Shown one piece after another: positions 2,252 to 14,633 of a stretch of DNA of 20,547 bases; the stretch's first letter is position 1, and every line of letters begins with the position of its first letter. Source of the stretch: a virus. Below the pieces are notes generated by a model, which saw only the letters and a program-made list of their open reading frames with translations, was not told the DNA's origin and ran no database searches. The position numbers were made by a program, and so were the translations under genes. The stretch is taken from IMG/VR virus record IMGVR_UViG_3300043436_003428, positions 1 to 20,547 of that record. One strand, written 5' to 3'.

Positions 2252-2351
2252 TATGTTCCCCCGAACAGTTGCATTGGATAAGTTCTAAACAATCGGTGCA
2301 GATGGCGTGTGGCCCATCATCATTTCCACAATTGACGCATGAATCAGTCAC
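2244..2351 (-). CDS. 35-aa cysteine-rich mini-protein (GTG start)
   Basis: A 35-codon ORF beginning with GTG (MTDSCVNCGNDDGPH) and continuing with ICTDCLELIQCNCSGEH. Six cysteines sit in CxxC-CxxC plus CxC arrangement, so zinc binding is likely. The GTG overlaps the TGA stop of the methyltransferase second half, and its own TGA overlaps the start of the next zinc-ribbon gene. No strong Shine-Dalgarno is seen (only GGTGG about 12 bases upstream), so expression would depend on coupling. The dense cysteine spacing and seamless overlaps on both sides are the arguments for reality. Function unknown. Confidence 0.55.
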   Translation of the reverse strand: MTDSCVNCGNDDGPHAICTDCLELIQCNCSGEHNE

Positions 2352-3114
2352 CGATCTGCGCCACCATTCGGCTGATAATCCATTCAACAACCGGCACGGC
2401 TACCGCGTTGCCCATTTGCTTGTATCGGTTTGAATCTGCCTGTCCATCTGTCCAACCATCAGGAAACCCTTGAAGGCGCTCGCATTCTGTTGGTGTGAGA
2501 CGGCGAACAACGGCTTCATTTGCAACGGCTCCAATATGATCAACATCTGATGCTGAAGCGCGAATTGCCTGAGTTGTTTTGTCATTGACTGTTTGATTGT
2601 AGGTGTCAAGAGCAACTGCCTCTGATACCTGGGCAATAAATAATTGAGCGTGATGTGATTGAGGCGAAGGTTGAAGGGCTTGAACTGCCAATGCAGTATC
2701 CGTCTCGGTGGCACTAAAATTGTTCGCCTTTGCATCTTCTCTGACCGAATAAGCAATCGGTTGTTCTTCAAAAATCATTGGCACATTTCCCCCACCTGTT
2801 CCATATCGTGAAATTACTGTTGGCACAATGCCATCTTCATACACTCGTACATCGTCAACACGAGTGCCGTCAATGATCAAATGTGAAGATTTGCTTGCAT
2901 TTGCTCTCAAAGCGTTCTTCACTTTTGATTCACTCCAATTTTCTTCAAATAATGATTTTGGTTCAAATAGAATCAAAACTGTTGCGTAAGCCTCGCCATT
3001 GTTATCCATTGCGTTCAATGTTGGTGTCACTCCGCCTTCATTCCAAGATTCATAATCATTTATGTTTTGTGCGCGTTTAGCTTTAGTCCACCAATAAAGT
3101 TTCACTTCCACCAC
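2344..3114 (-). CDS. C5 cytosine DNA methyltransferase, C-terminal half (target recognition and motifs IX-X)
   Basis: This ORF carries the end of a Dcm-type enzyme. RRLTPTECERLQGFPDGWT is motif IX, the target-recognition boundary, and YKQMGNAVAVPV is motif X, which completes the AdoMet pocket. The catalytic Cys and motifs I-VIII are in the overlapping upstream ORF in another frame. The two overlap by 32 bases. A GTG at 3112-3114 has AGGTGGAG six bases upstream, so it could be an independent second subunit as in known split enzymes such as M.AquI. Alternatively a +1 shift near 3083-3090 would join the frames, or a natural or sequencing frameshift has broken one gene. The central 150 residues are unusually long and polar for the family and hold the presumed target-recognition domain. 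Confidence 0.8.
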   Translation of the reverse strand: MVEVKLYWWTKAKRAQNINDYESWNEGGVTPTLNAMDNNGEAYATVLILFEPKSLFEENWSESKVKNALRANASKSSHLIIDGTRVDDVRVYEDGIVPTVISRYGTGGGNVPMIFEEQPIAYSVREDAKANNFSATETDTALAVQALQPSPQSHHAQLFIAQVSEAVALDTYNQTVNDKTTQAIRASASDVDHIGAVANEAVVRRLTPTECERLQGFPDGWTDGQADSNRYKQMGNAVAVPVVEWIISRMVAQIGD

Positions 3115-3811
3115 CTAAAACTCCACCTGATGCTTTCAAAGTTGCACTTGCATTTGTATCTACGAAGGCTCCGAAGCCACCTTCTCTAAAGCCATTTGAA
3201 GTTGGGGTGGGAGTGTCTTTTCTCGCCTGTTTGCTCGCCTCAAGATACCCTGCGCGGCTTTGGCCGATAGCGAGTATTTCTTCAGGTGATCCCCCTGTGT
3301 CTCCAAGACATCCGACAATGAACACTCTACGGCGGCGTTGGGGTACTCCAAAATATTGAGCATCACACACCCTCCAGGCGATGCGATACCCCCGTTCGAC
3401 CAACGCTTCAATGACAACGGCCATGTCTTTTCCCCCATTTGAGGAAAGTAAGCCAGGAACATTTTCGAGGATAAAATTTTGCGCTCTTGTTTCGTCAAGG
3501 AGTCGGCAGATTTGCCAGAAAAGTCCACTCCGTTCTCCGCCCAATCCTGCTCGCTTACCTGCGACTGATAAATCTTGACAGGGGAATCCACCTGTGATGA
3601 TTCCTGATTCTGGAATAAAGCCTGCTGCAATGAGTTGTTCACCTGTGACCCCCGATATATCGCCAAAGATAGTTGACTCAGGAAAATGTCGGCGAAGCAC
3701 ATCCTGGGCTTTTTTATCAATTTCAACTGATGCAACTACTTTCACACCATTTCGTTCTAAAGCTAAATCAAAACCACCTACACCTGCAAATAAAGAAACC
3801 GCAGTAATCAT
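3083..3811 (-). CDS. C5 cytosine DNA methyltransferase, N-terminal catalytic half
   Basis: This 242-aa ORF contains the catalytic motifs of a cytosine-5 DNA methyltransferase. The AdoMet-binding SLFAGVGGFDLALE is at the N-terminus, the catalytic GGFPCQDLS has Cys78, ENVPGLL is motif VI and GVPQRRRRVF is motif VIII. It then runs into a Gly-rich linker and stops before any target-recognition domain, which lies in the next ORF. I chose the ATG at 3811 (MITAVSLFAG) because it overlaps the FmdB-like stop as ATGA; an ATG four codons upstream (3823) is an alternative. Phage methyltransferases of this type usually protect the genome from host restriction. No restriction endonuclease is visible nearby, so it is probably solitary. 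Confidence 0.87.
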   Translation of the reverse strand: MITAVSLFAGVGGFDLALERNGVKVVASVEIDKKAQDVLRRHFPESTIFGDISGVTGEQLIAAGFIPESGIITGGFPCQDLSVAGKRAGLGGERSGLFWQICRLLDETRAQNFILENVPGLLSSNGGKDMAVVIEALVERGYRIAWRVCDAQYFGVPQRRRRVFIVGCLGDTGGSPEEILAIGQSRAGYLEASKQARKDTPTPTSNGFREGGFGAFVDTNASATLKASGGVLGGGSETLLVD

Positions 3812-3975
3812 TTGCCACCCCATCCTTCACCCTTGAAGATAGTTCCCCCAAGTGAGTATTTGCGTTGCATCAACTTCTTCTTGCAACCTTCACAGATGAT
3901 GCGCTTTTGATCATCCATCTCAAAAAAGACTTCAGCGATATGTCCACAATCGCAAGTGAATTCATAAAATGGCAT
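3808..3975 (-). CDS. FmdB-like zinc-ribbon protein
   Basis: A 55-aa protein starting MPFYEFTCDCGHIAEVFFEM, with ICEGCKKK and a tail ending FKGEGWGGK. The MP-x-YEF-x-C start, two Cys pairs (C8/C10 and C28/C31) and the aromatic Gly-rich end match the FmdB regulatory-protein zinc ribbon, commonly seen in actinobacteria and their phages. The start follows GGGGGAACA, the recurrent ribosome-binding motif of this genome. The stop overlaps the methyltransferase ATG. The biochemical role of FmdB ribbons is unsettled; nucleic-acid or protein binding is assumed. Confidence 0.8.
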   Translation of the reverse strand: MPFYEFTCDCGHIAEVFFEMDDQKRIICEGCKKKLMQRKYSLGGTIFKGEGWGGK

Positions 3976-5854: not shown

Positions 5855-6241
5855 TCAATACCAATTGAACTTTTGAAAGTGCGACCATGCATTGCATGGA
5901 GACACATGGCGCCTGTGGATATAGGCGAGAGATGCCACAAGTTGTGACACCTTAGACTCAGAATGTTCCATTCCAAGATTGCGATAGGTAGAGTCAAGCA
6001 GTTGGCCGATGCCTCGCGCAGAACTCGTTGGGTTTTTTGCGTCTTTCCAGGCTGATTCTTTACCAATCAACGCGGAATAACATTTGTATTGCTTAGTTGT
6101 AAGCAAATCACGAGCCACTTCCTTCGGATCAACCTGATCAAGAGGTGGTCGGTCTAAATAAACGATGGATGCAGGAACGGCAACTTGTGGTGCGAAGGCG
6201 GCATTGACAACCATTGATGTCAAACCACTCACGCTGATCAT
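5855..6241 (-). CDS. Lysozyme/transglycosylase-like (APF C-terminal-type) protein
   Basis: A 128-aa protein with a hydrophobic, perhaps signal-like N-terminus (MISVSGLTSMVVNAAFAPQV) followed by a peptidoglycan-lytic domain. It shows ALIGKESAWKDAKNPTSSA with a likely catalytic Glu, RGIGQLLDSTY, ASLAYIHRRH and the ending SPCNAWSHFQKFNWY. The ES-x-W...GIGQ...YI-x-x-R(H)...SPC-x-AW pattern matches the aggregation-promoting-factor/SLT-like lysozyme fold frequent in actinobacteria. It lies among DNA-metabolism genes rather than in the lysis block, where a separate CHAP endolysin occurs. The start overlaps the WhiB stop as ATGA. A role in entry or superinfection, or gene capture, is possible. Confidence 0.7.
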   Translation of the reverse strand: MISVSGLTSMVVNAAFAPQVAVPASIVYLDRPPLDQVDPKEVARDLLTTKQYKCYSALIGKESAWKDAKNPTSSARGIGQLLDSTYRNLGMEHSESKVSQLVASLAYIHRRHVSPCNAWSHFQKFNWY

Positions 6242-6690
6242 AATTGCGATTCCCCTGATAAGTTTTTTGTTTTGAGTTGTGATTGGAGTTCTCCTTTTGA
6301 TTTCACCCCTGCTTTGCGAAGAACTTGCGTTACATACGAAAGGTCTAAATTCAAAGCAATTGAGATTTCTTTTGGTGTTCTTCCTTGCAGATGAAGCCTG
6401 CGAATTGTCTCGGCGTTATTGATGCCGAACTTTTTGCGCCTTCTTTGAGCAACTACTCCACGCTCCTTTGGTGTCGTGCCTGCCCAAATCCCATGAGGGA
6501 TGTTTTCTGCAAGTGCGTATTCCAAGCACTCCTTTCGTTCTATACAACCGCTGCAAATACTGCGAGCAATTGGGAGACTGTTTGCCTCTTCGACTTTTCC
6601 TTCAGGAAAGAAAATGTCTGGGTTTTCGATGTCACGGCATTTTGCCTGCAACAACAAAGGTAATGTGGGGAAGAAGTATGTGAAGTTCAC
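6238..6690 (-). CDS. WhiB-like Fe-S regulator fused to a helix-turn-helix domain
   Basis: A 150-aa WhiB-family protein. The four cluster cysteines are C18 (AKCRDIENPDIFFP), C46, C49 and C55 (ICSGCIERKECLEYAL), followed by the signature turn GIWAGTTPKER and a basic stretch RRRKKFG. About residues 90-130 add a second domain, ETIRRLHLQGRTPKEISIAL then YVTQVLRKAG, which reads as a helix-turn-helix. Classical WhiB proteins end near the basic stretch, so this is longer than usual. The start is GTG overlapping the previous stop (GTGA). WhiB proteins bind sigma factor region 4 and tune host transcription; phage copies can also interfere with septation. This gene is the clearest evidence for an actinobacterial host. 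Confidence 0.88.
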   Translation of the reverse strand: MNFTYFFPTLPLLLQAKCRDIENPDIFFPEGKVEEANSLPIARSICSGCIERKECLEYALAENIPHGIWAGTTPKERGVVAQRRRKKFGINNAETIRRLHLQGRTPKEISIALNLDLSYVTQVLRKAGVKSKGELQSQLKTKNLSGESQL

Positions 6691-9400: not shown

Positions 9401-9447
9401 AAGAAATCCCCCTCACCATGACCGACTGATGGTGAGGGGGATTTCTT
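9401..9447. terminator. Bidirectional intrinsic terminator
   Basis: A perfect 19-bp inverted repeat (9401-9419 and 9429-9447) with a nine-base loop. The GC core CCCCCTCACCAT pairs with ATGGTGAGGGGG and is flanked by A-rich sequence on the left and T-rich on the right. It lies between converging genes: the prim-pol stops at 9387, and the epimerase stop codon is inside the right edge of the stem. It should end transcription from both sides. Confidence 0.85.
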
Positions 9448-10309
9448 ATTCGGCAAGTGCCAGGGCAATGCCTTCTTCAAGGGAAATCTTTGGTTCATAT
9501 ACCTGGAACATTCGAGTTGTATCGCCTACGCGGTATTCAACACCTATCGGCGCATCAAGATTGTTTTTGATCGGAGCAAGGTAGTTTGCTTGCAACATGA
9601 CCATTTCTGCCAACTCAATGAAAGAGGTTGGGCGACCTGAGCAGATGTTCATGACAGCGACATCATTGATCACGGCTGCAAAAGTAGCCCCAACAACATC
9701 GTCAATATGTACGAAATCTCGTACCTGTGTTCCTCTGCCCCACACTTCAAATGGGTCTGCCTTGCGCTTTGCTCGTTCAATAAAAGATGGGAATGGGTAA
9801 TCAAGTGCTTGATCTGCGCCGTATCCGCTAAATGGCCGCAAGACAGTTACTTTCAGACCTTCAGCTCGTGCATAAGAGGCAAGCATTTCGCCGGATAACT
9901 TTGCCCAACCATAGGTGAAATCAGGAGTGCGAATGTGTTCTAGGTTGATGTCAATTTCACGCAGTTTTTGTTGATAGGCGAGTTTTTGCAAGAAAATTGG
10001 ATATGCAGCACTTGATGAGAAATAGACAATGTGCTTTGGGCGAGTTCTCAATGCCCATTGGAACATATCTGCATCAATGGCAAGGTCAGAGGCAACTGAC
10101 AATGGGTTTCCCTCAATGGTCATTCGCCCACCGACAATCGCCGCTAGATGAATAACGATGTCAAATTGTGTGTCATCTGTGGCGAAGAAATGTCGAACCT
10201 CTTTGCCATTTACCAGGTCAATTCCTGTGATGTCGTGGCGTTGTTTTGCAAGCGCACGATGAAATGCACGCCCAACAAAACCGGCATCACCTGTGATCAG
10301 AATCTTCAT
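9446..10309 (-). CDS. NAD-dependent sugar epimerase/dehydratase (extended SDR)
   Basis: A 287-aa extended short-chain dehydrogenase acting on nucleotide sugars. MKILITGDAGFVGRAF holds the GxxGxxG dinucleotide site, IVIHLAAIVGG follows, SSSAAYP gives the catalytic Ser, and YGWAK has Tyr133 and Lys137. GADQALDYPFPSF and RDFVHIDDVVGA are the substrate-side motifs of GDP-fucose synthase/UDP-sugar epimerase relatives. I start at 10309 because that ATG overlaps the glycosyltransferase stop (ATGA); the ORF could extend four codons. As last gene of the late block, next to two glycosyltransferases, it likely supplies or modifies a sugar for virion, DNA or host-surface glycosylation. The exact substrate cannot be told. 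Confidence 0.87.
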   Translation of the reverse strand: MKILITGDAGFVGRAFHRALAKQRHDITGIDLVNGKEVRHFFATDDTQFDIVIHLAAIVGGRMTIEGNPLSVASDLAIDADMFQWALRTRPKHIVYFSSSAAYPIFLQKLAYQQKLREIDINLEHIRTPDFTYGWAKLSGEMLASYARAEGLKVTVLRPFSGYGADQALDYPFPSFIERAKRKADPFEVWGRGTQVRDFVHIDDVVGATFAAVINDVAVMNICSGRPTSFIELAEMVMLQANYLAPIKNNLDAPIGVEYRVGDTTRMFQVYEPKISLEEGIALALAE

Positions 10310-11031
10310 TCCATCCCCCATTCATATTGATATTTGTCATCACCTGTCAGGGCAATGGATTTTTGTTGATCAATAGCAAAGATGAACCTATCATTCTCAT
10401 CAAGGGCTGCGCCAATGTGACTGATGGCGTTGGCAGGCTCAATCAGATAATCCTTGCGAACTGATTTGCCCTCAACCTGGGTGTCATAGAACTCGTCATG
10501 GACAAAGCAGGAAAATTGGATTCTTGGGTAAATCAGATTCCGCAGGAAGTCTTGGTCTTGGGTGTAGTAATCCGAAATTTCTGCCGACTCAATCAAGGCG
10601 CGGATGTCTTTGAAGAGCGCAGATCGAACTGTGAACATACCTGCATTGATGGGGTAATTGTGACCTATTGGGTGATCTTTCATGATGTGAGCATCAAGGC
10701 CCGATTCAAGAAACTGCTCGTGGGCGTGTAACTCACGCAAAGAAATGCGAGCATCGGCATCACGGAAGGCAACAAAGTCATAATCTAGTTCACAAGCAAG
10801 AAATCGCCACAACTTGGCGGTGTGATCTTCAGGTGCATCTGTCTGAATAATTTGAACATTGCTAAATAGGCGCAAGGTTGAGATTACCCAGGAAGGCACC
10901 GATTGACCTACGAAAAAGATCAATTCGTATTCATCATCCAAAATCTGTTCAGCGATGATGGCGTTTTTGATTGCTCCTACCGAATACCGCAAATCTGACC
11001 CATAAAGTGAGAATGCAATTGCCTGTTTCAT
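10306..11031 (-). CDS. Glycosyltransferase-like protein (GT-A, DxD)
   Basis: A 241-aa protein with features of GT-A glycosyltransferases: an N-terminal Rossmann-like part (MKQAIAFSLYGSDLRYSVGA), ELIFFVGQSVPSWV, AKLWRFLA, then DYDFVAFRDADAR containing the metal-binding D-x-D. HPIGHNYPINAGMF and YTQDQDFLRNLIYPRI resemble the acceptor and catalytic regions of family 8-like or phage-type transferases. ATG at 11031 overlaps the previous stop (ATGA). No membrane segment is seen, so it should be cytoplasmic. The donor sugar and acceptor are unknown. Confidence 0.72.
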   Translation of the reverse strand: MKQAIAFSLYGSDLRYSVGAIKNAIIAEQILDDEYELIFFVGQSVPSWVISTLRLFSNVQIIQTDAPEDHTAKLWRFLACELDYDFVAFRDADARISLRELHAHEQFLESGLDAHIMKDHPIGHNYPINAGMFTVRSALFKDIRALIESAEISDYYTQDQDFLRNLIYPRIQFSCFVHDEFYDTQVEGKSVRKDYLIEPANAISHIGAALDENDRFIFAIDQQKSIALTGDDKYQYEWGME

Positions 11032-11690
11032 CGGCGCAGTTTCTTGAGCAAGACCTCGTAGGCTTCTGATTCAATGTAGTTTTTGTAAGCAAGAGCATCG
11101 GCGGAATAAACTTCTTGTGCATTGACTGCAACATATCCTTCATCCCATGCAGCTTTTCCTGCAACCGGATGCATATGCTCAACAATGACATCTTCAAGGT
11201 AATGCAAAGAGCCTAAATCCTCGCCCAATTTCTTCCAAAAGTTGTCAAGATAAAGGTGCTTCATATTTGGTGGCACCATTCCGCCAAGTGCTTTGACAAT
11301 ATCTGATGTCATTGCAACCATCGTTGGAAGACGCTTGCCTTGAAGTAGATCATTGCCGTAGGCAACTGACGGCGCCTGTTGCAATGCCTGGATGAGTTTT
11401 GCATCCCAATCGGCGGTGCGTGGGCGGTGGTCATCGCCTAAGAAAGCGAAATACTTGTATTTGTCATCGTATTTGTGTGCCACATAATTGAGTGGCTTTG
11501 CCATGCCTCGTGAATCATTGTTGCAAGTGATTACATAGTCATCGCCTAATTCAAAGACATATTCATCAGCCTTTGGGTCGTCATAATCAACAATAAAGAG
11601 CAAGCGTGATGCAGATGAAAGTTCATCGTGAGCAGCAAGAAGTTCAACTGCATTTTGTGGTCGCCCACGAGTTGGAACAAGTGTAATCAT
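11028..11690 (-). CDS. Glycosyltransferase-like protein (family 2-type)
   Basis: A 220-aa protein starting MITLVPTRGRPQNAVELLAA, the typical opening of family-2-like transferases, followed by RLLFIVDYDDPKADEY, MAKPLNYVAHKY and FAFLGDDHRPRTADWD with a likely D-D-H metal motif. The C-terminus HYLEDVIVEHMHPVAGKAAW is also seen in phage glycosyltransferase-like proteins. The ATG at 11690 overlaps the upstream TGA; an ATG two codons upstream is possible. It is translationally linked to the next glycosyltransferase and the epimerase, forming a three-gene sugar cassette. Confidence 0.75.
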   Translation of the reverse strand: MITLVPTRGRPQNAVELLAAHDELSSASRLLFIVDYDDPKADEYVFELGDDYVITCNNDSRGMAKPLNYVAHKYDDKYKYFAFLGDDHRPRTADWDAKLIQALQQAPSVAYGNDLLQGKRLPTMVAMTSDIVKALGGMVPPNMKHLYLDNFWKKLGEDLGSLHYLEDVIVEHMHPVAGKAAWDEGYVAVNAQEVYSADALAYKNYIESEAYEVLLKKLRR

Positions 11691-11956
11691 TTCCATTGTG
11701 ATTCAATCTCCCCGGCTATTGAGGCATAGGCTGCCAAATCTACGAAGGAATCTTCATGATCAGGTGTCTCAATCAAACGAGCTATTTTGACAAGGCATAA
11801 ACACAAAGCGACCTGTGAAGGTGTTATCTCAGTTTCAAGATACACGCTCCACAGGTCGGCGATGCGTTTGTGATTTACATACGGTGATCCATAGTTTTTT
11901 TGACGATCAGTATGCGTGAGGCGTTTTGCCTCATCTAAGATTTCCCCCCGGTTCAT
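11687..11956 (-). CDS. DUF6378-like phage protein
   Basis: An 89-aa all-helical protein: NRGEILDEAKRLTHTDRQKN, then YGSPYVNHKRIADLWSVYL, ITPSQVALCLCLVKIARL and HEDSFVDLAAYASIAGEI. The pattern DRQ-x-x-YG...N...IA-x-LW...LVK-x-AR...D-x-x-VD-x-AGYA matches a domain of unknown function common in phages (DUF6378 from memory). The helical, acidic pattern recalls MazG-like nucleotide pyrophosphatases, but that is a guess. It sits between the lysis block and the sugar cassette. Confidence 0.65.
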   Translation of the reverse strand: MNRGEILDEAKRLTHTDRQKNYGSPYVNHKRIADLWSVYLETEITPSQVALCLCLVKIARLIETPDHEDSFVDLAAYASIAGEIESQWK

Positions 11957-11959
11957 GGC

Positions 11960-12157
11960 TTACTTGCTTCCGCGTCCGAACTCAGTTGCCTTTGGATCAA
12001 TAGCCTTAAAGATTGGGCCAACGACTGCTGCAATTCCTGCTGCAAGGTATTCCTTGATTGGGCGATTTGGGTCTGTCATGTATAACGCTGCAACGGCTGC
12101 TGCTGCTGCTCGCAGATAAGTCTTTGCAACTGCTTCAATTTTTACTTTGTCAAACAT
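11960..12157 (-). CDS. Small membrane-associated phage protein
   Basis: A 65-aa protein beginning MFDKVKIEAVAKTYLRAAAA. Two Ala-rich hydrophobic stretches (about 16-27 and 39-52) are separated by the polar turn TDPNRPIKEY, and the end is DPKATEFGRGSK. Similar small proteins follow the endolysin in many actinophage-like genomes and are sometimes called holin-like. The hydrophobicity is modest, so a peripheral or two-pass membrane protein is likelier than a classical holin. Shine-Dalgarno AAGGAG precedes the ATG. Confidence 0.65.
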   Translation of the reverse strand: MFDKVKIEAVAKTYLRAAAAAVAALYMTDPNRPIKEYLAAGIAAVVGPIFKAIDPKATEFGRGSK

Positions 12158-12159
12158 GA

Positions 12160-12660
12160 TTACTCCTTAAAAGTAGGCTTGCCGAATCCAACGATGAACA
12201 CAGGCAAGGATGGTTGTAGTTTCCCACGATTTTTCTTCTTATAGGCGCGAACCTTACGGCATACTTGACCGCCGTTGCGCTGATCGCCCTTCTTATCAGG
12301 TGCCGTGTTGCCCTCAATTGTCACGACAGTTCCATCATCTCGAACCTGCAAGACGATGCCGACATGAGAAATCCGGTCAACGCCATCTGATGGGAAATCA
12401 AAGAACACGATGTCACCTGGCATTGGCGTGGCAACCTCGGCATCTTGCCATTTGCCCTTTTCCTGAAACGCCTGCGCCCCTGACGGGGTGAAGGTGCAGT
12501 TAGGAATTTTTACGCCGGCAGATTTTGCCACAAAGTTGACGAAGGCACCGCACCAGGGTTGGTTTGCCTTTTGATAGTGAGTTTGATTCTCGGCAGGGCC
12601 TTCTATGAAGCCTTCTTCGGCTCGTGCCGCATCAAGAAACTTGTTGAGTTGAGCTGACAT
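12160..12660 (-). CDS. CHAP-domain endolysin
   Basis: A 166-aa peptidoglycan hydrolase. QPWCGAFVNF has the catalytic Cys37, DRISHVGIV has His99, and TIEGNT supplies the third polar residue, the Cys-His-(Glu/Asn) set of CHAP amidases/endopeptidases. TPMPGDIVFFDFP precedes the His as usual. No signal peptide or separate wall-binding domain is evident, although the basic C-terminus (VRAYKKKNRGK) may aid binding. The ORF extends to 12696, but the ATG at 12660 has the strong AAGGGGAGAAC site and starts at the domain. It overlaps the holin-like gene by 29 bases, a classic holin-endolysin pair. Confidence 0.87.
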   Translation of the reverse strand: MSAQLNKFLDAARAEEGFIEGPAENQTHYQKANQPWCGAFVNFVAKSAGVKIPNCTFTPSGAQAFQEKGKWQDAEVATPMPGDIVFFDFPSDGVDRISHVGIVLQVRDDGTVVTIEGNTAPDKKGDQRNGGQVCRKVRAYKKKNRGKLQPSLPVFIVGFGKPTFKE

Positions 12661-12925
12661 TGTTCTCCCCTTGTTTTGGTTTTGATTTGAGTCCATTTGC
12701 AGAGACTATCCCTGACAAAGTTCCTGTGAGAAAGACTGTCAATGTTGCAACTAGATCAATAAAGGCTGCGTCATTGGGTGCTTGTTTCATAGGTTGGGTG
12801 ACAAATACTAATGCCCAAAGGAGTGCAAATACCGATCCTGCAAAGACGATTGCCAAGATGATTCCGATACTGACAACAAGTCGAGCGTGTAATTCTTCAG
12901 GTGTATATCGGCTAGGGCGTTTCAT
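12632..12925 (-). CDS. Holin (two transmembrane segments)
   Basis: A 97-aa protein starting MKRPSRYTPEELHARLVVSI. Two hydrophobic helices (about 16-45, GIILAIVFAGSVFALLWALV; and about 56-78, DLVATLTVFLTGTLSGIV) are followed by a charged tail (LKSKPKQGENN). This is class II holin topology and the gene overlaps the endolysin start. The ORF continues upstream to 13051, but the ATG at 12925 has GGAG eight bases before it and overlaps the end of the lipoprotein gene by 14 bases. Holins permeabilise the membrane to release endolysin. Confidence 0.72.
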   Translation of the reverse strand: MKRPSRYTPEELHARLVVSIGIILAIVFAGSVFALLWALVFVTQPMKQAPNDAAFIDLVATLTVFLTGTLSGIVSANGLKSKPKQGENNVSSTQQVS

Positions 12926-13100
12926 CAAATATCTCCGGAAGTAGGTCAGAGGTGCAGGTTCCTGTTGTTTCGCATTGCGGTTTGTTGCATTCGGGTTTTT
13001 CCCAATTTTCAAACTCTTGGCATGGGTATCTGACCCAACCTTGATACCCACAACCGCTAAGAGTCAGAGCGAGTAAGCAGGATGCGATAAATCTCTTCAA
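12912..13100 (-). CDS. Small lipoprotein nested in the upstream coiled-coil gene
   Basis: A 62-aa protein starting from TTG: MKRFIASCLLALTLSGCGYQ, a signal peptide ending in lipobox LSGC (Cys17). The mature part is Cys-rich: VRYPCQEFENWEKPECNKPQ then CETTGTCTSDLLPE. Similar YPCQ...W...C...C proteins occur in aquatic phages. The start is not certain; a TTG at 13098-13100 with GGAA upstream fits, and the ORF itself is open to 13229. It overlaps the preceding membrane/coiled-coil gene by 44 bases in another frame, the layout of Rz/Rz1 spanin pairs. In a monoderm host a spanin would not be expected, so its function is open. Confidence 0.68.
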   Translation of the reverse strand: MKRFIASCLLALTLSGCGYQGWVRYPCQEFENWEKPECNKPQCETTGTCTSDLLPEIFDETP

Positions 13101-13260
13101 CTTGTCGTTCCAATCTTTGAACGGAATCTTTGAGACTTGAGCCAGAATTGGGCTTGAGTTCATTGAGGTAATGCTTAACAAGCCATCGAACGGCTGTTGC
13201 AAAAGCACCAATGATGGTGATGAGTGCAACTGCCAACGCTGCCCAATCCTGCGCGGTCAT
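13057..13260 (-). CDS. Membrane-anchored coiled-coil protein (Rz-like position)
   Basis: A 67-aa protein: a short N-terminus MTAQDWAALAVALITIIGAF with one transmembrane helix (about 6-27), then a polar linker and the helix SLKDSVQRLERQVEEIYRIL, which has a heptad coiled-coil pattern. Such N-anchored, coiled-coil-tailed proteins are common in phage lysis regions and resemble i-spanins or holin partners. It starts where the preceding stop ends (ATGA) and contains the start of the lipoprotein gene in another frame. Confidence 0.75.
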   Translation of the reverse strand: MTAQDWAALAVALITIIGAFATAVRWLVKHYLNELKPNSGSSLKDSVQRLERQVEEIYRILLTRSDS

Positions 13261-13853: not shown

Positions 13854-14633
13854 TTATCCAATCACTATTACTACGAAACCTGAGCCGCCTGTTGGTGTGC
13901 CGCCACTTCCGCCGCCGCCGTCACCTGTGTTTGCTCCGCCACTAGTGCTGCTGTCACCCACACGACCTGCCGCATAAGTAACTGAAGATCCAGTTATTGA
14001 ATTAGCCGTTCCTGCTCCAGCCGTTCCAGAAACACCTGATGAAGCATTTCCACCTGCACTAGTTGAACCGCCGCCGCCGCCGGCCCTATTACTTGAATTG
14101 CCACTTCCTACAAAGAAACCGCTGCCGCCATTATTACCAGCGCCACCGCCGTTTGCAAAACCACCGGGTGCGTTAGATGTTGAACCATTTCCACCACCGC
14201 CGCTTGCACCGTCACCTGCTTGCGTTACTTTGCCATGACCACCACCTGAAGTGTAATAAACTGTTCCGATTTTGCTACCGCCACCGCTATTACCGCCCGA
14301 TGCACCACCTGCGCCAACTGTTACAGTTTGTGAACCTGCCGATAAATATCCATTAACTGTATAAAGATAACCACCGGCACCGCCACCGCCTGCTGTGCTT
14401 CCTGGAACAGGGCCAGAGTAAACACCCGATCCGCCGCCACCGACTACCAAAACTTCGCAAGTGCCAGCAACGCCGATCGTGATCGTTCCTGATCCTGTGA
14501 ATTTGTAGATTGTTTTTCCGGGGCGTGATGATGTGTCAACCGTTGGCGAACCTGTGGTTCCTGTAACAGTTGCCTTTGGTGTACCGCCACCGCCGCCTTG
14601 TACGAATGGAAAACTTGTAAGTAATGGACTCAT
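13854..14633 (-). CDS. Glycine-rich tail adhesin/fibre-tip protein
   Basis: A 259-aa protein dominated by Gly and Ser, with many GGGG and GGAGG stretches between about residue 60 and 250. The ordered N-terminal half-domain reads KTIYKFTGSGTITIGVAGTC then EVLVVGGGGSG, the hallmark of the phage glycine-rich domain, and the end is GGSGFVVIVIG. Poly-glycine sandwiches form receptor-binding tips in T-even gp38-type adhesins, so host recognition is likely. Repetitive Gly codons produce a plus-strand sequence full of GCC and CCG repeats, prone to slippage and variation. AAGGGG precedes the start. Confidence 0.75.
   Translation of the reverse strand: MSPLLTSFPFVQGGGGGTPKATVTGTTGSPTVDTSSRPGKTIYKFTGSGTITIGVAGTCEVLVVGGGGSGVYSGPVPGSTAGGGGAGGYLYTVNGYLSAGSQTVTVGAGGASGGNSGGGSKIGTVYYTSGGGHGKVTQAGDGASGGGGNGSTSNAPGGFANGGGAGNNGGSGFFVGSGNSSNRAGGGGGSTSAGGNASSGVSGTAGAGTANSITGSSVTYAAGRVGDSSTSGGANTGDGGGGSGGTPTGGSGFVVIVIG

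Follow-up and report, generated by a model that had tools for sequence, protein, structure and literature searches.

The constant partner of a small lipoprotein encoded in a phage lysis region is the hairpin membrane protein encoded downstream of it, and not the coil protein whose gene overlaps its own. Together, the lipoprotein and the hairpin may form an accessory module that a lysis cassette either has in full or lacks, in which the lipoprotein probably regulates a holin-like hairpin, and to which the coil gene is a mere neighbour despite the overlap; taken as a whole, this account is given about an even chance of being correct. Phages of bacteria with one membrane and of bacteria with two both have the module, which in some of them lies beside a genuine spanin. 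The DNA considered here (hereafter the window, i.e., the whole stretch of 20,547 nucleotides) had been described in a sequence-only reading as carrying a spanin-like nested gene pair, in spite of a host predicted to have a single membrane.

Organisation of the Window and Its Probable Host

The open reading frames on the minus strand of the window comprise tail genes, followed by a compact run of small overlapping genes. The features discussed are as follows:

13057–13260, minus strand: single-transmembrane (TM) coil protein, 67 aa, matching phrog_9869 (1e-15), with a charged, coil-forming C-terminus
12912–13100, minus strand: lipoprotein, 62 aa, with a TTG start, the lipobox LSGC and a 46-aa mature domain
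13057–13100, minus strand: stretch shared by the coil and lipoprotein genes, 44 nt, double-coding by substitution analysis
12632–12925, minus strand: two-helix hairpin membrane protein, 97 aa, matching phrog_25359 (4e-37)
12160–12657, minus strand: CHAP-domain endolysin, with a further ATG in the same ORF upstream, at 12696
11960–12157, minus strand: hydrophobic protein, 65 aa, with the C-terminus EFGRGSK, a candidate 2-TM holin
6238–6690, minus strand: WhiB-family regulator, a host marker for Actinomycetota

The 65-aa protein, possibly a 2-TM holin, is retained in coil loci both with and without the lipoprotein module. After the lysis genes, sugar epimerase-like and glycosyltransferase-like ORFs (9446–11696, minus strand) are perhaps concerned with surface or DNA glycosylation, and a glycine-rich tail-region protein of 259 aa (13854–14633, minus strand) probably represents a fibre or adhesin-like domain. 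A C5-cytosine methyltransferase is apparently split between two overlapping ORFs in different frames (2344–3114 and 3083–3823, minus strand); the Pfam domain match is confined to the N-terminal part, ORF 3083–3823, and ORF 2344–3114 carries a plausible C-terminal part, LTPTECERLQGFPDGW.

The host of the window is probably a monoderm actinobacterium, as judged from gene content. WhiB is encoded in the window, in 31 of 41 long IMG/VR records with close lipoprotein relatives, and in the Actinomycetia phage DSL-LC01, and the nearest relatives of the primase/helicase and the endolysin belong to Arthrobacter and Streptomyces phages. These observations leave the earlier suggestion that the host call might be wrong without support.

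The Lipoprotein Gene and Its Product

The lipoprotein (12912–13100, minus strand) reads (M)KRFIASCLLALTLSGC followed by GYQGWVRYPCQEFENWEKPECNKPQCETTGTCTSDLLPEIFDETP, with a TTG start and the lipobox LSGC. Across 45 distinct homologous segments, its frame has a pN/pS of 0.23 beyond the overlap and of 1.00 upstream of the TTG, which places the start at this codon, while the synonymous change in the coil frame drops from 0.636 to 0.137 inside the 44-nt overlap. Purifying selection acts on the lipoprotein frame beginning at the TTG, and the overlap is double-coding; the possibility of a chance ORF is rejected by the pN/pS of 0.23 and by this double constraint. In the sampled loci, a GGA element located some 8 nt before the TTG is conserved without exception (100%). 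Thus, the coordinates, start, lipobox and overlap proposed from the sequence were right, as borne out by the substitution pattern and by the retention of the lipobox in 236 of 236 loci of clades A and B. The pair had been described as nested, but the lipoprotein gene overlaps the coil gene rather than being contained in it, with about three quarters of its length lying past the coil stop.

At least 569 relatives of the lipoprotein were found. Copies of clade A occur mostly in WhiB phages, those of clade B in Rz/Rz1 phages, and those of clade C in phages without either marker. In all 75 clade C loci, a TM anchor takes the place of the lipobox, with the four-Cys domain kept. The mature domain follows the pattern R-Y-x-C-Q...W...C..P.C.....C, its invariant residues being R24, Y25, C27, Q28, W33, C38, P41, C43 and C49, and is modelled by AlphaFold as a small domain with moderate confidence, for which no fold match was found in the PDB. 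Searches of Pfam, PHROG, PADLOC and the PDB with the lipoprotein returned chance-level matches only; PDB matches to antibody light chains reflect a short YYCQ-like stretch and were dismissed. A unimolecular spanin would combine a lipobox with a C-terminal TM helix, and the mature 46 aa are hydrophilic and devoid of such a helix.

The Hairpin and Its Linkage to the Lipoprotein

The start of the hairpin gene overlaps the end of the lipoprotein gene by 14 nt. Its product is a real two-TM protein, for which phrog_25359 is the sole family matched (4e-37), as it is also matched by all 48 scanned hairpin members, drawn from all three clades. This family, to which the hairpin belongs, carries no functional label, and the lipoprotein falls into no significant PHROG. 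The best match of the hairpin family to Phage_holin_3_6 has an E-value of 0.0023 and concerns 4 of 48 members, and neither the hairpin nor the lipoprotein has a sequence or fold match to a proven holin or antiholin. Of the holin and endolysin that had been read downstream of the lipoprotein, the CHAP endolysin and a two-TM protein are indeed present, but the supposed holin matches just this unlabelled family.

AlphaFold (mean pLDDT 70) places helices at residues 9–42 and 50–78 of the hairpin, joined by a VTQP...D turn; V42, T43, Q44, P45 and D52 are invariant in the turn, as are G68 and L70 in helix 2. The charge rule agrees with both ends lying in the cytoplasm in 55 of 60 clade A and B members and in 2 of 14 clade C members, and does not back this topology in the other 12 of the 14.

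After de-duplication of the loci, for which short segments were compared at 95% DNA identity, a hairpin adjoins the lipoprotein in 179 of 179 lipoprotein loci, and the lipoprotein is present in 195 of 195 hairpin loci. An endolysin of the CHAP, M15 or GH19 type follows the hairpin in 84 of 104 clade A, 53 of 55 clade B and all 57 clade C loci, counts from which only identical segments were dropped. Many of these loci are related metagenomic contigs, which may be fragments and were fetched by searches with one member of the set, and the percentages describe the sampled neighbourhood. In clade A, the endolysin after the hairpin alternates between CHAP and M15 peptidase while the upstream genes remain constant, a modular exchange. 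In DSL-LC01, a metagenome assembly and not an isolate, the endolysin lies about 10 kb away, and the pair comes straight after a gene of a holin family (phrog_443, 1.5e-5). The small membrane protein at 3651–3953 of DSL-LC01 matches both phrog_26427, which bears a nuclease label, and the holin family phrog_443; the first of these labels seems to be an annotation mistake.

The Coil Protein

The coil protein (13057–13260, minus strand), MTAQDWAALAVALITIIGAFATAVRWLVKHYLNELKPNSGSSLKDSVQRLERQVEEIYRILLTRSDS, has homologues of 64–79 aa. In all 141 distinct homologues there is no Lys or Arg before the TM helix, and the 15 residues after it hold a mean of about three, by which the positive-inside rule predicts a cytoplasmic coil. 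Its predicted topology is N-out/C-in, the reverse of that of Rz. On average, 43 residues follow the TM helix in the homologues; in Rz of related phages with diderm hosts, the figure is 135.

Among 106 de-duplicated coil loci, 63 have both the lipoprotein and the hairpin, 43 have neither, and none has just one of them. Planktophila phage F5 (OX376641), an isolate, encodes a coil homologue with 64% identity to that of the window; whole-record searches found no hairpin in F5 or in 16 other coil-only records. In F5, a cultivated acI phage, an endolysin and a GRGSK protein of 61 aa come immediately after the coil gene, and genes for the lipoprotein and the hairpin are absent. The coil protein and the lipoprotein are therefore rejected as obligate partners, as 43 of the 106 coil loci, and likewise F5, are without the lipoprotein. 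Since coil-only phages, including an isolate, do without the module, lysis does not depend on it.

In topology, but not in size, the coil protein matches the single-TM, holin-like LysF1b type, a class that its authors set apart from spanins (PMC13056207). As described there, LysF1b proteins have one TM helix, an N-out-C-in orientation and basic residues following the TM helix, all features shared with the coil protein; they measure 92–150 aa as compared with 67 aa here, and the likeness is drawn from topology and not from sequence (PMC13056207). In F1 mycobacteriophages, LysF1b is paired in one cassette with LysF1a, a 2-TM N-in-C-in protein; no lipoprotein partner is mentioned in that description of them, whereas the hairpin of the window is tied to one (PMC13056207).

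Relatives in Phages of Diderm Bacteria

None of the 37 clade B records carrying lipoprotein relatives encodes WhiB. Their gene order comprises a TM-coil gene, the lipoprotein, the hairpin, a true Rz in which a proline-rich Rz1 is nested, and the endolysin. It was first met in a contig binned with a betaproteobacterium (L164) and recurs in the complete record MW202462, in which the Rz/Rz1 pair was recognised by ORF inspection. With an iterated profile, Rz is detected in 73 of 80 lipoprotein loci of diderm phages, and a nested Rz1 accompanies 73 of 75 Rz loci overall; PF03245 alone under-detects Rz, giving 15 of 37 clade B records and missing MW202462.

The mature lipoproteins of diderm phages start with CED, CEE, CQD or CDD, with E, D or Q at +2 plus D or E at +3 in 78 of 80, while Rz1 at the same loci starts with CGF, CGS, CSF, CAF or CAS. 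For RcsF, an acidic residue (Asp or Glu) at +2 prevents or strongly hampers entry into LolCDE (PMC9595528), on which account the diderm copies are likely retained in the inner membrane, with the caveat that lipoprotein sorting rules differ between species (PMC6469965).

Is the Overlapping Pair a Spanin?

The likeness to Rz/Rz1 (PF03245; phrog_2466, phrog_3198) on which the original proposal was built is genuine as far as it goes, in that both consist of small overlapping genes near the endolysin, one encoding a lipobox and the other a single TM helix with a coil. These features are what would speak for a two-component spanin in which the coil protein and the lipoprotein act on an outer layer of the host, an explanation that we consider highly improbable. 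The coil is predicted to be cytoplasmic in every one of its 141 homologues, opposite to Rz, and some 43 residues past the TM helix, in place of about 135, fall short of an ectodomain long enough for spanning the periplasm. The coil is not tied to the lipoprotein, the two genes being separated in the 43 coil-only loci and in F5, and the lipoprotein has a four-Cys domain where Rz1 is proline-rich. In diderm phages, the lipoprotein family coexists with a true Rz and nested Rz1, which adjoin it, and has acidic residues at +2/+3 where Rz1 has CGF or CGS. The survey of homologues by host type, to which the proposal had been referred, thus went against the analogy, the relatives in diderm phages adjoining a separate Rz. 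Moreover, clade C is without a lipobox, and an anchor in which lipid can be exchanged for a cytoplasmic-membrane helix implies that the lipoprotein does not work from the outer membrane. Finally, the host is probably monoderm, and an outer barrier around it need not be assumed. The further suggestion that the pair might have another job stands for the lipoprotein, but its partner in that job is the downstream hairpin.

Possible Functions of the Module

The linkage of the two genes, their conservation, the anchor swap, the position upstream of the endolysin and the coexistence with true spanins were observed directly. In view of the pairing, the position, the swap and the spread across envelope types, the simplest interpretation is that an exported protein regulates a holin-like hairpin. 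The four-Cys domain would be held outside the cytoplasmic membrane, on its surface; the anchor is a lipid in most phages and a TM helix in clade C. In this position, the domain would face the invariant turn, VTQP...D, of the hairpin, both ends of which are predicted, from the positive-inside rule and the structural model, to be cytoplasmic. The hairpin is most likely a holin-like membrane protein, and the lipoprotein may be its exported regulator, probably stabilised by putative disulfides, acting as an antiholin or as a trigger through a proposed physical contact and thereby tuning the timing of lysis. The most specific form of this proposal, namely, a lipid-anchored, disulfide-stabilised antiholin or trigger that acts on the turn of a hairpin holin, and owes its spread among phages of monoderm and of diderm hosts to acting solely at the cytoplasmic membrane they share, is put forward tentatively, as possible rather than probable. 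A precedent is T4 RI, a secreted antiholin paired with holin T, in which a small extracytoplasmic domain acts on a membrane holin from outside, as proposed for the lipoprotein; the latter differs in its lipid anchor, its sequence and its hairpin partner, and the likeness comes from the proposed role.

The main rival, which we regard as unlikely, is that the lipoprotein–hairpin pair serves late superinfection exclusion by blocking DNA entry at the cytoplasmic membrane. Exclusion proteins include the small membrane protein Imm of T4 and phage lipoproteins such as Ltp of TP-J34, and an exported, tethered lipoprotein with a membrane partner, together with the dispensable, accessory distribution of the pair, would suit such a role. 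Cor lipoproteins (phrog_1119), also an exclusion family, are small phage lipoproteins like that of the window, and 8 of 59 lipoprotein members match them weakly; however, the sole match inspected spans residues 1–37, mostly signal peptide, with an E-value of 0.013, and Cor was rejected as a relative, the similarity not extending over the mature domain. PADLOC gives no match, and in phages unrelated to one another, whose endolysins are of the CHAP, M15 or GH19 type, the module keeps its position relative to the endolysin, which also argues against exclusion. That same position, directly upstream of different endolysins, and the class II-like holin shape of the hairpin would equally accord with a lysis factor other than a regulator, i.e., a two-part holin or a membrane device helping the endolysin to reach or act on the wall. 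We judge this quite unlikely, as phages with the same coil family lack the pair, among them an isolate that lyses its host, and as the separate holin candidate at 11960–12157 is retained.

Conclusions

The apparent paradox of a spanin in a phage of a monoderm host is removed, and its place is taken by a widespread, unannotated two-gene module of lysis cassettes. A TM-coil gene that overlaps a lipobox gene beside an endolysin provides insufficient grounds for calling a spanin. If the lipoprotein does regulate the hairpin, the module would offer a candidate that could be tested in one framework on both envelope types.
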